Source: Bacteriovoracaceae bacterium (GTDB taxonomy: Bacteria; Bdellovibrionota; Bacteriovoracia; Bacteriovoracales; Bacteriovoracaceae). From it: DNA of 64,000 nt. Shown one piece after another: positions 27,875 to 32,073 of this stretch. Both the position numbers and the translations under genes were made by a program. The notes below the pieces were generated by a model. That model made no database searches and was not told the origin of the DNA. It was given only the letters and a program-made list of their open reading frames with translations. Each line of letters begins with the position of its first letter. Position 1 is the stretch's first letter. Location of the stretch: NCBI GenBank assembly GCA_947441615.1, contig CANEUH010000006.1:1-64000 (forward strand), written 5' to 3'.

Positions 27875-28738
27875 ATGAAAAAACTACTTCTAGTTTTAAT
27901 GATACTAATCGTGTCTGCATGCTCTCAGAAAAGCGATACTGTTATTATTCAAAACAAAGGATCTGATACTCTCGTAAATTTGGCCCAAGCTTGGGCCGAA
28001 GAATACAAAAATATTAATACCAAAGTTGCTCTGGCCGTATCCGGAGGAGGCTCTGGAACAGGAATTGCTGCCCTCATTAATGGAACAGTTGATATTGCAA
28101 ACTCCTCAAGAGCGATAAAACCTGAGGAACGTGATGAAGCGAAAAAGAATACTGGAAATGATGTCAAAGAATTTATCGTAGGAATGGATGCTTTAGCGGT
28201 TTTTATTCATCCATCAAACCCTATCACTGGTCTTTCACTCGAGGAAGTCGCTTGTATTTATGGCGAAGGTGGCAAGTGCACTCATTGGAGTGACATTCGC
28301 GGCACGGTTGTACCAGGTTGCAAAGATAATAAAATCATCCGAGTTTCTCGCCAATCTAACTCCGGTACGTACCAGTATTTTAGAGAGGCGATCCTAGGGA
28401 AGAAAAAAGATCTCAAACTTGGCTCAATGGACCTCAATGGCTCTAGAGAGTCAATTGATCTCGTTGAAAAAACACCTTGTGCCATTGGCTACTCAGGAAT
28501 GGGTTACCTTAATCCCAGAGTGCGTGCAGTTTGTATTCAAAAAACTTCCAACTCTGATTGCATTGAACCAACGGTCAAAACGGCCATGGATAAATCCTAT
28601 CCCATTTCAAGAGAACTCTATATGTATACTTCGGGTAATCCATCAGAAATGGTTCAGGCCTATTTAGACTGGACTCAAAGTGATAGGGCCCACGAAATCA
28701 CGGTTAAAGCAGGCTACGTCCCTGCACCTAAAAGGTAA
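27875..28738 (+). CDS. pstS: Phosphate-binding lipoprotein of the Pst importer
   Basis: High-affinity phosphate receptor. A lipoprotein signal ends IVSACS (Cys16). The phosphate-binding loops are recognisable: KGSDTL (about 28-33), GGGSGTGIAAL (about 57-67), NSSRAI and SRQSNSGTYQYF (about 159-170). 287 residues, somewhat shorter than E. coli PstS (346) but normal for the lipoprotein class. pstC follows two bases after. A Pho-box-like repeat lies upstream. AAGGAA before the ATG. Confidence 0.93.
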   Translation: MKKLLLVLMILIVSACSQKSDTVIIQNKGSDTLVNLAQAWAEEYKNINTKVALAVSGGGSGTGIAALINGTVDIANSSRAIKPEERDEAKKNTGNDVKEFIVGMDALAVFIHPSNPITGLSLEEVACIYGEGGKCTHWSDIRGTVVPGCKDNKIIRVSRQSNSGTYQYFREAILGKKKDLKLGSMDLNGSRESIDLVEKTPCAIGYSGMGYLNPRVRAVCIQKTSNSDCIEPTVKTAMDKSYPISRELYMYTSGNPSEMVQAYLDWTQSDRAHEITVKAGYVPAPKR

Positions 28739-28740
28739 CT

Positions 28741-29673
28741 ATGGAAATCAAAGTAACTGAACCTGCTCCTCTAGCGATGGAGTGGCGCCAAAAGAAAAAA
28801 GAAAAGCCAATCGCCGAAAAAATCGTTGAAGGAATCATTAAAACTGGTGGCGTGAGCTGTATTGTTCTCATCGCTGCAATTTTATTTTTTATTTTAAAAG
28901 AATCTTACCCTTTTCTTGTTGGCGCATTCAATTTTAAAGAATTTTTCTTTTCTGAAGAGTGGTACCCAGCTTCGGTAGTAAAAATCAGATATGGAATCCT
29001 GGCCCTCCTTGCTGGGACAGTTCTTGTCACAATTATCTCCATGCTGATTGCAGTCCCTCTCGGTCTTGCTTGTGCTTTTTATATTTCAGAGTTCTGTTCT
29101 CCAAAGGTAAGAGAAATTTACAAAATTCTCATTGAATTTCTTGCGGCAATCCCTTCAGTTGTCTGGGGATTTATTGCGATCATGATGATTAACCCCACCA
29201 TTATTAATTTATTTGATGTTCCCATTGGGCTTAACATTCTGAATGCTTCAATCATTCTCGCACTGATGTCACTTCCACTGATTATTTCAGTTGGTGAGGA
29301 TGCATTAAGGGCCGTACCAGAAACTTATCGTGAAGCAGCTGAAGCGATGGGTGCAACAAAGTGGGAAGTTGCTACGAGAGTTCTTCTACCTGCAGCGAAA
29401 AATGGTCTCATGGCGGCGGCTCTTCTTGGTGTTGGACGGGTCTTGGGAGAAACCATGGCGGTCCTCATGGCAACAGGGCACTCCATACAAATACCAAATA
29501 GTATTTTTGAACCAGGAAGAACTTTAACGGCTACAATCGCTGCTGAATTAGGTGAATCACCTAAAGGTGGGGAACACTATCAAGCTCTCTTCGCTATTGG
29601 TTTGGTTCTATTTTGCTTATCGTTTATCGTTAATTTAACTGCAGACTTTCTTATTCGCGGCAGGAGGCAATAA
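28741..29673 (+). CDS. pstC: Phosphate ABC transporter permease
   Basis: 310 residues. N-terminal cytoplasmic tail, then about six membrane segments starting near residue 35. The EAA-type coupling loop YREAAEAMGATKWEV is at about 197-211, and AAIPSVVWGFIAI is the PstC signature. Neighbours pstS and pstA are 2 bases away on each side. Pairs with PstA as the membrane channel for phosphate. Confidence 0.93.
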   Translation: MEIKVTEPAPLAMEWRQKKKEKPIAEKIVEGIIKTGGVSCIVLIAAILFFILKESYPFLVGAFNFKEFFFSEEWYPASVVKIRYGILALLAGTVLVTIISMLIAVPLGLACAFYISEFCSPKVREIYKILIEFLAAIPSVVWGFIAIMMINPTIINLFDVPIGLNILNASIILALMSLPLIISVGEDALRAVPETYREAAEAMGATKWEVATRVLLPAAKNGLMAAALLGVGRVLGETMAVLMATGHSIQIPNSIFEPGRTLTATIAAELGESPKGGEHYQALFAIGLVLFCLSFIVNLTADFLIRGRRQ

Positions 29674-29675
29674 TT

Positions 29676-30545
29676 ATGTTTCGGCCTAGTAATCATCTTT
29701 TAAATAAAGAAATCAAAGAGAAAAAATTTAAAAACCTTCTCAGTACAATAACGTTTTTCCTTTTTCTTCCAGCACTAATCATTATTTTTTGGCTTTTTGT
29801 TAAAGGCTATTCTGCTCTTTCGTGGGATTTTCTTCTCATGGATCCCATTCAGGGGATGACTGCCGGAGGAATTTTTCCGACGATCGTTGGAACATTTTGG
29901 CTTGTCATCATCAGTGTTCTCGTTGCTTGTCCAATGGGTGTGATTGCTGCCATATATCTTTCTGAATACGCTAAGGACAATAAGCTTACGAGAGTCATTC
30001 GCCTTGCGATTTTGAACCTAGCGGGTGTTCCTAGTATTGTTCATGCTCTTTTTGGTCTTGGTGCCTTTGTTCTCTTTATGAAAATGGGAACAAGTATCCT
30101 GGCAGCCTCATTAACTCTTGCTGTGATGAATTTACCCGTCATCATTACTTCTACCTTAGAATCTCTTAAGGCCGTTCCTCACTCATATAGAGAGGCATCT
30201 TGGAACGTTGGGGCCAGTAAGTTACAAACAATACGCTACATCGTTCTTCCGAATTCCTTACCTGGAATTTTAACGGGTGTCGTTTTTTCAGTGGGAAGAT
30301 CTGCTGGTGAAACTGCTGCCATTCTCTTCACTGGGGTTGCGTTCTATTTACCTTTTCTACCTAAATCTGTCTTTGATCAATGTATGGCACTGTCGATGCA
30401 TCTTTTTACAATTTCAACTCAAGTCGTAGGCGTTCCTGATGCTTATCCCTTCGCAACGGCACTTGTTTTGATCCTTCTTATTCTCTCCGTAAATTCGATT
30501 GCTGTTGGACTTAGAAGTTATTTTCGAATGAAGAGAAAGTGGTAA
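29676..30545 (+). CDS. pstA: Phosphate ABC transporter permease
   Basis: 289 residues with about six membrane segments. PstA signatures: NLAGVPSIVHALFGLGAFV and the coupling loop SYREASWNVGASKLQTI, then GRSAGETAAILFTG, which carries charged residues conserved in PstA. Overall normal length. Followed after 4 bases by the first pstB. Confidence 0.93.
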   Translation: MFRPSNHLLNKEIKEKKFKNLLSTITFFLFLPALIIIFWLFVKGYSALSWDFLLMDPIQGMTAGGIFPTIVGTFWLVIISVLVACPMGVIAAIYLSEYAKDNKLTRVIRLAILNLAGVPSIVHALFGLGAFVLFMKMGTSILAASLTLAVMNLPVIITSTLESLKAVPHSYREASWNVGASKLQTIRYIVLPNSLPGILTGVVFSVGRSAGETAAILFTGVAFYLPFLPKSVFDQCMALSMHLFTISTQVVGVPDAYPFATALVLILLILSVNSIAVGLRSYFRMKRKW

Positions 30546-30549
30546 GACC

Positions 30550-31305
30550 ATGAATAAAAAAATTGAAATTAAAAACCTCACTGTTAACTATGGCAATAAA
30601 GATGTGATTCACAATCTTTATCTTGATATTTTTCAAAATGAAGTATTGGCGATTATTGGGCCAGCAAACTCAGGCAAGAGTTCACTCTTAAGATCTTTAA
30701 ACCGAATGATGGATTTTCATCCCACGGCAAAAGTGTCCGGAGACATAAAGCTTGATGGTGAAAGTATTTACCTCGATGAAGACTCTACTTTTTTAAGAAG
30801 AAGAATTGGTATGGTGTCCCCATTACCTGTTGGTCTTCCAATGAGTATTCGAGAAAATGTTTTATACGCTCCTAAGATGGCAGGTTGTAAAGATCAAGGA
30901 GAACTCGACTTTATCATGGAAGACTGTCTCAAAAAAGCTGCTCTCTGGGATGAAGTAAAGGATCGTCTGGATGGTCTTGCGACTAAACTATCTGGAGGTC
31001 AGCAGCAGCGCCTTACTATCGCTCGAGCACTTTCTCACCACCCTGAAGTTTTATGTCTTGATGAATTCTCAATTGCTATTGATCCCGTCACAACCATGAA
31101 AATTGAAGCTGTTCTGCACGAATTAAAAAAGAACATGACTATTGTGATGGTAACAAATGTTATCAATCAGGCGAAACGCCTTGGCGATAGAACTGCGATG
31201 ATGCTTCATGGAAGTATTATTGATTTGGACTCAAATGATAGGCTCTTTAATGGTCATGTTAAAGACACAAGAACGAAAGAATACATTGAAGGACTTTTTG
31301 GATAA
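30550..31305 (+). CDS. pstB: PstB-like ATPase 1: signature intact, Q-loop and H-loop residues lost
   Basis: 251 residues, PstB-like over the full length. Walker A GPANSGKSS (about 37-45), signature LSGGQQQR (about 148-155) and Walker B with Glu (CLDEFS) are present. The Q-loop, VFQKPNP in normal PstB, reads VSPLPVG, so the Gln is lost. The H-loop VTHNM reads VTNVI, so the His is lost. DE is followed by Phe not Pro. Alone it should hydrolyse ATP poorly, but its LSGGQ could complete the site of the second PstB encoded four bases downstream. No PhoU gene follows. Confidence 0.9.
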   Translation: MNKKIEIKNLTVNYGNKDVIHNLYLDIFQNEVLAIIGPANSGKSSLLRSLNRMMDFHPTAKVSGDIKLDGESIYLDEDSTFLRRRIGMVSPLPVGLPMSIRENVLYAPKMAGCKDQGELDFIMEDCLKKAALWDEVKDRLDGLATKLSGGQQQRLTIARALSHHPEVLCLDEFSIAIDPVTTMKIEAVLHELKKNMTIVMVTNVINQAKRLGDRTAMMLHGSIIDLDSNDRLFNGHVKDTRTKEYIEGLFG

Positions 31306-31308
31306 CCT

Positions 31309-32073
31309 ATGAATAGAAATTATGTTGTTAACACAAACGAATTCTCCTTTTGGTATGGCCAATTTCAAGCGCTAAAAGATTTAACGTTTAATATTTCGGC
31401 CTTTAAAATTACTGCTCTGATTGGACCTTCAGGTTGCGGCAAGAGTACTTTTTTAAAATGTTTAAATCGTGTTAATGAAAGAGGTACAGAAGTTTCTCAT
31501 GAGGGAAGTATTCAAGTTTTTGGAGAGGATATCTATCACCCGACTGTCGCTCTTCCAGAACTTAGAAAACAAGTAGGTATGGTGTTTCAAAAACCAAACC
31601 CACTTCCTCTATCCATTTATGAGAATGTTATTTTTGGTGCTCGCACTCACCTTAAAAAAGTTACTAAAAAAGAATTAGATCAAATGGTCGAAAGCTCATT
31701 AACTAGAGTTGGTCTTTGGGATGATTTAAAGAATCAACTAAACAGGCCAGCGTTGAGCTTAAGCCTTGAGAAGCAGCAGCGTCTTTGTATTGCGCGCTTA
31801 TTGCCTTTAAAACCCAAACTATTACTTCTAGATGAACCCTGCTCTGCCCTAGATCCTGCTGGAATAGAGGCGATTGAAACACTCATCAAAGATCTCAAGA
31901 AAGATTACTCCATCATTATTGTGACTCACTCCATGAGCCAGGCCAAACGTGTCTCAGATGAAACGATTTTTATGTACATGGGTGAATTGGTTGAAATGGG
32001 TCAAACTCAAGAATTATTCGAAAAGCCAAAAGAAGAACGAACTGCTGCCTATATTGAAGGACGTTTTGGTTAA
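31309..32073 (+). CDS. pstB: PstB-like ATPase 2: catalytic residues intact, signature motif lost
   Basis: 254 residues, clear PstB. Walker A GPSGCGKST (about 39-47), Q-loop MVFQKPNPLP, Walker B LLLLDEPCSALDP and H-loop IVTHSM are all normal. The ABC signature, LSGGQQQRLCIARAL in normal PstB, reads LSLEKQQRLCIARLL (about 153-167), confirmed at codons 31756-31800. Gly-Gly-Gln is lost, so this subunit cannot complete the partner's ATP site. The defects are the mirror image of those in PstB 1, suggesting that the two form a heterodimer with one active site. Confidence 0.9.
   Translation: MNRNYVVNTNEFSFWYGQFQALKDLTFNISAFKITALIGPSGCGKSTFLKCLNRVNERGTEVSHEGSIQVFGEDIYHPTVALPELRKQVGMVFQKPNPLPLSIYENVIFGARTHLKKVTKKELDQMVESSLTRVGLWDDLKNQLNRPALSLSLEKQQRLCIARLLPLKPKLLLLDEPCSALDPAGIEAIETLIKDLKKDYSIIIVTHSMSQAKRVSDETIFMYMGELVEMGQTQELFEKPKEERTAAYIEGRFG

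Follow-up and report, generated by a model that had tools for sequence, protein, structure and literature searches.

A 64,000-nucleotide stretch of a Peredibacter genome of the family Bacteriovoracaceae (GCA_947441615.1, contig CANEUH010000006.1; hereafter the window) contains a phosphate transport operon with two adjacent pstB genes. Their products, PstB1 and PstB2, very probably form an obligate heterodimer with two composite sites, of which one is predicted to hydrolyse ATP, while the other is likely to do no more than bind it.

The operon has the order pstS-pstC-pstA-pstB1-pstB2, all genes and motifs given below being on the plus strand (coordinates are those of the window). A pstS-type phosphate-binding protein gene (27875..28738; TIGR02136, 222.2 bits at a cut-off of 206.6; PF12849) is followed by the permease genes pstC (28741..29673; TIGR02138, 281.7 bits, cut-off 196.45) and pstA (29676..30545; TIGR00974, 253.1 bits, cut-off 193.45). 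By motif comparison, PstB1 (30550..31305, 251 aa) has degenerate Q- and H-loops and an intact LSGGQ signature, and PstB2 (31309..32073, 254 aa) has intact Walker A, Walker B, Q- and H-loops and an altered signature. The earlier note on this DNA had placed the genes 4 bases apart, which is correct for pstA and pstB1, the gap between pstB1 and pstB2 being 3 bases. The PstB equivalog model TIGR00972 is the best model for both proteins, and both (276.4 bits for PstB1, 330.8 bits for PstB2) score below its curated cut-off of 343.2; relatives in the same clades exceed it (373 for PstB2 of L078; 343.3 and 372.9 for PstB1 and PstB2 of L204). A 248-position PstB profile reaches the ends of both proteins. 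Both are encoded together with pstS, pstC and pstA, as expected of PstB equivalogs, and neither has all ABC motifs canonical in one chain. The Rfam search and a scan for consensus promoters and terminators around the operon yielded nothing above chance. The PstA protein has an unusual coupling-helix sequence, EASWNVGASKLQT, and the PstC loop is ordinary. Comparison of the EAA loops of PstC and PstA (29 pair operons against 43 ordinary ones) was tried and rejected as a guide to the seating of the ATPases under each permease; EASWNVGASKLQT was absent from the six Omnitrophota pair operons of this comparison.

The motifs were read by alignment of both proteins with PstB of E. coli K-12 (NP_418181.1, L322). 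In PstB1, Walker A is GPANSGKSS (30658..30684; canonical GPSGCGKST, hence ANS for SGC) with Lys43 kept, the Q-loop glutamine is replaced by Pro91 (30820..30822; SPLPVG versus FQKPTP in E. coli), and the H-loop histidine by Asn203 (31156..31158; VTN). The D-loop reads IAIDP where SALDP is expected. Walker B Asp171-Glu172 (31060..31065) is kept, and so is the signature LSGGQ (residues 147-151, 30988..31002), which is proposed to complete the live site. In PstB2, Walker A is GPSGCGKST (Lys45; 31423..31449), and the Q-loop Gln94 (FQK; 31588..31590), Walker B Asp175-Glu176 (31831..31836) and the H-loop His207 (VTH; 31927..31929) are all present; the signature is LSLEK (residues 151-155, 31759..31773) in place of the canonical LSGGQ. 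The earlier note had described the Q-loop and H-loop changes of PstB1 and the altered signature of PstB2, and the alignment with the E. coli protein confirmed both descriptions; the changed Walker A letters and D-loop of PstB1 are additions to it.

In an ABC dimer, each ATP site consists of Walker A, Walker B, Q-loop and H-loop of one chain and the signature of the other. We infer from the motifs that PstB1 and PstB2 would dimerise under PstC and PstA; as the permease is itself a PstC/PstA heteromer, it should offer two different seats for two different ATPases. Site A, combining Walker A/B, Gln94 and His207 of PstB2 with LSGGQ of PstB1, would be complete in its consensus residues and is expected to split ATP. 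Site B, combining Walker A/B, Pro91 and Asn203 of PstB1 with LSLEK of PstB2, would have neither a gamma-phosphate sensor nor a switch histidine and would face a signature without its glycines. The position of the second signature glycine is occupied by Glu154 in PstB2, and an acidic residue at the equivalent position disables CFTR in the G551D variant. Site B had been called dead, and it is indeed degenerate, but the word is too strong: since Lys43 and Asp171-Glu172 are kept, PstB1 probably still binds ATP, and the site should hydrolyse it little or not at all, providing a hinge-like hold on both subunits. Moreover, the Walker B glutamate is often replaced in degenerate nucleotide-binding domains (NBDs) of exporters, whereas Peredibacter PstB1 keeps Glu172, so that site B might retain some turnover. 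The roles of the ABC motifs have been reviewed (PMC7756269), and a degenerate exporter site is described there as able to hold ATP over many cycles and to act as a hinge.

A homodimer of either PstB1 or PstB2 would have two sites, each without essential residues. An alternative, in which PstB1 and PstB2 each form a homodimer with non-canonical chemistry and a different role, is in our view very improbable. PstB1 and PstB2 of E. faecalis have been reported to have non-overlapping functions, but both of those copies, unlike both Peredibacter ones, are canonical in the motifs compared (PMC12096839). Here, both sites would be without the glutamine and the histidine in a PstB1 homodimer and without the signature in a PstB2 homodimer, and the losses are partitioned as a mixed dimer needs. 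Further, no additional PstB was detected in the genome itself (3.26 Mb, 92% complete): the PstB model gives 330 and 276 bits for the two proteins and only 153 bits for the next ABC ATPase, and no further candidate for a normal PstB homodimer emerged.

In the family of the window, PstB1 matches at E 1e-30 or better were obtained in 81 of 129 genomes. Judged by score and position, the pair is present in 30 of these (both members in 27, one member at a contig end in three), and a PstB of the ordinary score class in 51; the latter were classed by score, and motifs were read in two of them (L038, L141), both canonical. Among the 26 Peredibacter genomes, the present one included, 21 have both genes, three (G084, with a contig ending at 3254, G095 and G099) show a single member, located at a contig end, and two (G080 and G091) have neither gene and no pstC. 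Scores of the PstB1 profile in the phylum are separated by a gap, 29 of 368 genomes reaching at least 395 bits and the rest no more than 325. One high-scoring genome, G274, comes from another family, and its pair (L140) is complementary too.

No phoU gene was found in the genome of the window, and Peredibacter seems to run Pst without PhoU. The only PhoU-domain match in this genome (L230:1162-2838, contig C2) falls in the C-terminal portion of a membrane protein of 558 aa, which, judged by eye, looks like a Na/phosphate symporter. Stand-alone PhoU (TIGR02135) occurs in 50 of the 51 family genomes with ordinary-class PstB and in one of the 30 with the pair; this search covered 125 genomes versus 129 for PstB, and G007, the sole ordinary-class genome without a match, together with a few pair genomes, may fall outside it. 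In the ordinary class, PhoU can be located directly behind pstB (e.g., G051, G038 and G107). Such a distribution could mean that PstB1 is mainly a regulatory or scaffold protein and that PstB2-PstB1 is a throttled pump replacing the PhoU brake. We give this reading little credence, as the 30 pair genomes belong to five genera and are not independent, and as PhoU follows pstB2 in all six long Omnitrophota pair loci looked at. Since these operons carry PhoU, the pair does not generally replace it, and replacement as a general rule was rejected. Two PhoU proteins with C-terminal extensions were also observed: one (L059:2980-4158, DolZOral MAG) is encoded between pstS and pstC, and its extension matches low-molecular-weight phosphatase (LMWPc); the gene of the other (L320:4541-5668, G058) adjoins pstS, and its extension has no Pfam match.

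The pair is also found in other phyla. In Omnitrophota, PstB1 scoring at least 354 bits was detected in 92 of the 237 genomes drawn. All 92, which lie above the score gap, carry the replacements Gln to Ala and His to Asn and keep Lys, Asp-Glu and LSGGQ; three matches below the gap are canonical. PstB2 is encoded next door in 90 of the 92 fetched stretches, the other two being cut by contig ends. None of the 89 readable PstB2 sequences has LSGGQ, and all keep Lys, Gln, Asp-Glu and His. Their signatures are LSLEQ (68), LSGEQ (7), LSLEE (3), LTLEQ (3) and eight others found once each; an acidic residue (Glu or Asp) takes the place of the second glycine in every one of the 89, and the first is kept in some (seven LSGEQ, one LSGEL, one LTGEE). 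An ordinary Pst system adjoins the pair operon in five of the six Omnitrophota loci with long flanks. In L078, L079, L082, L083 and L103, ordinary pstA-pstB genes (with pstC where the contig reaches) and a two-ATPase pst operon occur on the same contig.

In Spirochaetota, 66 of the 247 genomes drawn had a match, and the 30 loci fetched and read comprise six complementary pairs, two loci of a further-decayed Treponema type and 22 canonical loci. PstB1 of the six pairs has FALP and VTN, and PstB2 has LPLYQ or LPLYH. In the Treponema type (L087, L216 and L219 of Spirochaetota; L313 of Bacillota), the Walker A lysine of PstB1 is lost (GPANSGITT) and its Walker B glutamate is replaced by Arg, LSGGQ being kept; the partner has LTAGE or LAPGQ with other motifs canonical and is encoded about 2.5-2.7 kb away in L087 and L313, being located before pstS in L087.

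The Bacillota sample (81 genomes) contained five close pstB pairs. Three are canonical in both copies, except that one copy has VSH for VTH, and two are complementary, namely L312 and the Treponema-type L313 (2.7 kb apart). In L312 (G862), PstB1 has lost only the Q-loop residue (Gln to Ala) and keeps the histidine, and the partner has LSLGQ; this pair may represent an intermediate stage or else a second origin. In L315 (FPN, LPKGQ) and L317 (ARH, LSPGE, FATN), a single PstB-like protein is changed on both sides, and no second PstB match was found in these genomes at E 1e-85, the threshold to which the Bacillota sample is limited, so that diverged copies may be missed.

For assessment of conservation, the relatives of PstB1, of PstB2 and of the spirochaete PstB1 were in each case the best 120 of about 8000 scored. 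Among the matches listed, the ANS Walker A, SPLPVG, LSGGQ, LDEFSIAIDP and VTN are present in all 120 PstB1 clusters (that of the window included), Glu172 of Walker B being likewise kept in 120 of 120; canonical Walker A, FQK, DE and VTH together with LSLEK are present in all 120 PstB2 clusters. The listed relatives of the spirochaete PstB1 (120 of 120, query included) have Ala for Gln and Asn for His and keep LSGGQ, Lys and Asp-Glu; their source names include Spirochaetota, Verrucomicrobiota, Kiritimatiellia and Bacteroidota MAGs, for the PstB1 side only. The earlier note had proposed to ask whether the same residues are lost in each paralogue across the clade, and the answer is strongly positive, across three phyla.

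Median dN/dS (NG86, calculated only for pairs with dS<2, the rest of the 210 pairs being saturated) is 0.046 for pstB1 (10 of 210 pairs) and 0.028 for pstB2 (6 of 210). For the neighbouring genes it is 0.051 (pstC, 10 pairs), 0.032 (pstA, 19) and 0.081 (pstS, 23). To judge from these values, which for both pstB genes are low as they are for pstC and pstA, neither pstB gene looks decaying, and both are under purifying selection. A decaying pseudogene copy, named in the earlier note as an observation that would speak against the heterodimer, was not seen in Peredibacter or in the pairs read, both genes being intact. The view that pstB was duplicated and that one copy or both are now decaying is consistent with the sub-cut-off scores of both window proteins and with the deeper decay of certain relatives (loss of the Walker A lysine in Treponema-type PstB1), but it is scarcely credible in the face of intact frames, these low median dN/dS values from 10 and 6 unsaturated pairs, altered motifs invariant in 240 of 240 clusters among the matches listed, and the location at contig ends of all singletons in the loci read (three in Peredibacter and two in Omnitrophota).

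The order pstC-pstA-pstB1 was found in all 29 pair operons with enough flank, and pstB2 is next in 28 of the 29 (where the contig continues); in L079, the two pstB genes are separated by about 1.5 kb containing other ORFs. A pstS gene lies upstream in each of the 29 operons with the exception of L063, which yielded none near the start of its contig. Of the 130 distinct pairs collected, Bdellovibrionota contributed 30 (including two allied MAGs), Omnitrophota 94 and Spirochaetota six. The composite site formed by Walker A/B, Gln and His of PstB2 and the Ser-Gly-Gly of PstB1 is intact in 129 of them, and in L200 the contig ends before the histidine. Losses in the H-loop and Q-loop (His to Asn, Gln to Pro or Ala) occur in PstB1 and in no readable PstB2 of the 130 pairs. 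As these pairs were picked by Asn in PstB1 and the lack of GG in PstB2, the number of broken sites is shaped by the selection and does not count as independent evidence, but the number of live sites is free of it; the Omnitrophota count of 92 was made without that filter. Thus, the earlier claim that the losses are complementary, each chain keeping exactly the motifs of a mixed site, holds across the pairs. Given the same residues in 120 of 120 listed clusters of each protein and the same partition in 130 pairs, chance is not an adequate explanation.

Sequence entropy was calculated for the 21 pairs of the phylogenetic tree. For motifs of the live site it is 0.00 bits in the PstB1 signature and the PstB2 H-loop, 0.06 in PstB2 Walker A, 0.16 in the Q-loop and 0.17 in Walker B/D-loop. 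For those of the degenerate site it is 0.50 in PstB1 Walker A, 0.91 in the Q-loop, 0.64 in Walker B/D-loop and 0.96 in the PstB2 signature. The PstB1 VTN is invariant across the 21 pairs, the degenerate-site motifs otherwise differing between clades. The baselines are 1.15-1.21 bits for whole proteins and 0.00-0.36 bits for the same motifs in 30 canonical PstBs.

The maximum-likelihood tree, which is unrooted, was built from 75 chosen proteins (23 PstB1, 22 PstB2 and 30 canonical). All 23 PstB1 form one clade (100/99), and 21 of the 22 PstB2 form another (100/99), the exception being a Treponema partner; the two clades are not sisters. Both groups hold with 62 of the 263 columns, those around the motifs, masked (FastTree; 0.94 and 0.95). 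Distances among PstB1 mirror those among PstB2 (r = 0.87 for 21 pairs, with no null run). From the single clades and the mirrored distances, each subunit appears to have arisen once, the two travelling together. Therefore, the 130 pairs are not 130 independent events; they represent one event kept for a long time, and it is this persistence that argues for function. When covariation of PstB1 with PstB2 was calculated (94 Omnitrophota pairs, Neff 51), the maximum exceeded all eight shuffles, but the same few columns recur, as phylogeny would give; the signal looks phylogenetic and was set aside.

From the motifs we further infer hydrolysis at one site and a cost of one ATP per phosphate. Tentatively, and with more doubt than confidence, we suggest a half-price pump, in which the second site would be a permanent ATP-held hinge between specialised PstB subunits, the whole constituting an ancient cross-phylum branch of Pst. 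If true, this would be, to our knowledge, the first natural one-engine nutrient importer with separate subunits. Why many ABC proteins keep one non-turning site is an open question that has been studied mostly in large exporters. Here the same split occurs in a small importer of a nutrient, whose ATPase subunits are separate proteins, and it is kept in Bdellovibrionota, Omnitrophota and Spirochaetota. Should the heterodimer prove real, its subunits could be made and mutated separately and phosphate per ATP could be counted, and the ordinary Pst system next door in Omnitrophota would allow a side-by-side comparison.

Among known systems, the best PDB match of both proteins is PstB of E. coli K-12 (PDB 9k3x/9k3y/9k3s), which belongs to the same fold family and has the same partners pstS, pstC and pstA. 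However, E. coli has one pstB gene with all motifs canonical, followed by phoU, whereas Peredibacter has two genes, each degenerate in a different part. In the PDB, two entries are listed with four identical PstB chains, as expected of a homodimer. Tandem pstB genes of Bacillota, encoding PstB1/PstB2 in E. faecalis and PstBA/PstBB in B. subtilis, are likewise adjacent in one pst operon, and PstBA and PstBB have been modelled together as the two NBDs (PMC11466899). With both E. faecalis copies canonical, and likewise three of the five close pairs of the Bacillota sample, tandem pstB genes are not degenerate as such.

DppD/DppF and OppD/OppF are likewise importers with two different ATPase subunits. 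OppD/F had been offered as the analogue of the pair, which proved a poor choice: in the related DppD/DppF of E. coli, ATP is bound and hydrolysed at both sites, and a 4Fe-4S cluster is present at the C-terminus of each subunit (PMC12136057); exporters such as Pdr5 and the TAP pair ABCB2/B3 fit better (PMC7756269). The C-terminal Fe-S/oligopeptide domain of the Dpp and Opp ATPases is absent from PstB1 and PstB2. Importer ATPases with one degenerate site are also described for B. subtilis (RbsA and NupO; PMC11466899); in these type II importers two NBDs are fused in one chain and the second Walker A lysine is lost, whereas PstB1 and PstB2 are separate proteins. In the open-licence PMC literature, searched by title and beginning of abstract, no report of a degenerate, heterodimeric or asymmetric PstB was found; degenerate sites are common in exporters, where heterodimers of this kind are known, and a case in a Pst importer was not found in the literature searched.

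A parallel in motifs is provided by the degenerate-site ABC proteins TM287/288, TmrAB, TAP (ABCB2/B3), CFTR (ABCC7) and Pdr5, which likewise combine losses on the catalytic side of one NBD with loss of the signature in its partner. The signature of Pdr5 NBD2, LNVEQ, is close to LSLEQ of the PstB2 relatives (PMC7756269). These proteins have exporter membrane domains, whereas the Peredibacter operon encodes the importer permeases PstC and PstA, separate ATPase subunits and a binding protein. As in the degenerate-site heterodimers, however, the signature is altered in one NBD only, that of PstB2, and catalytic losses are confined to its partner, PstB1.
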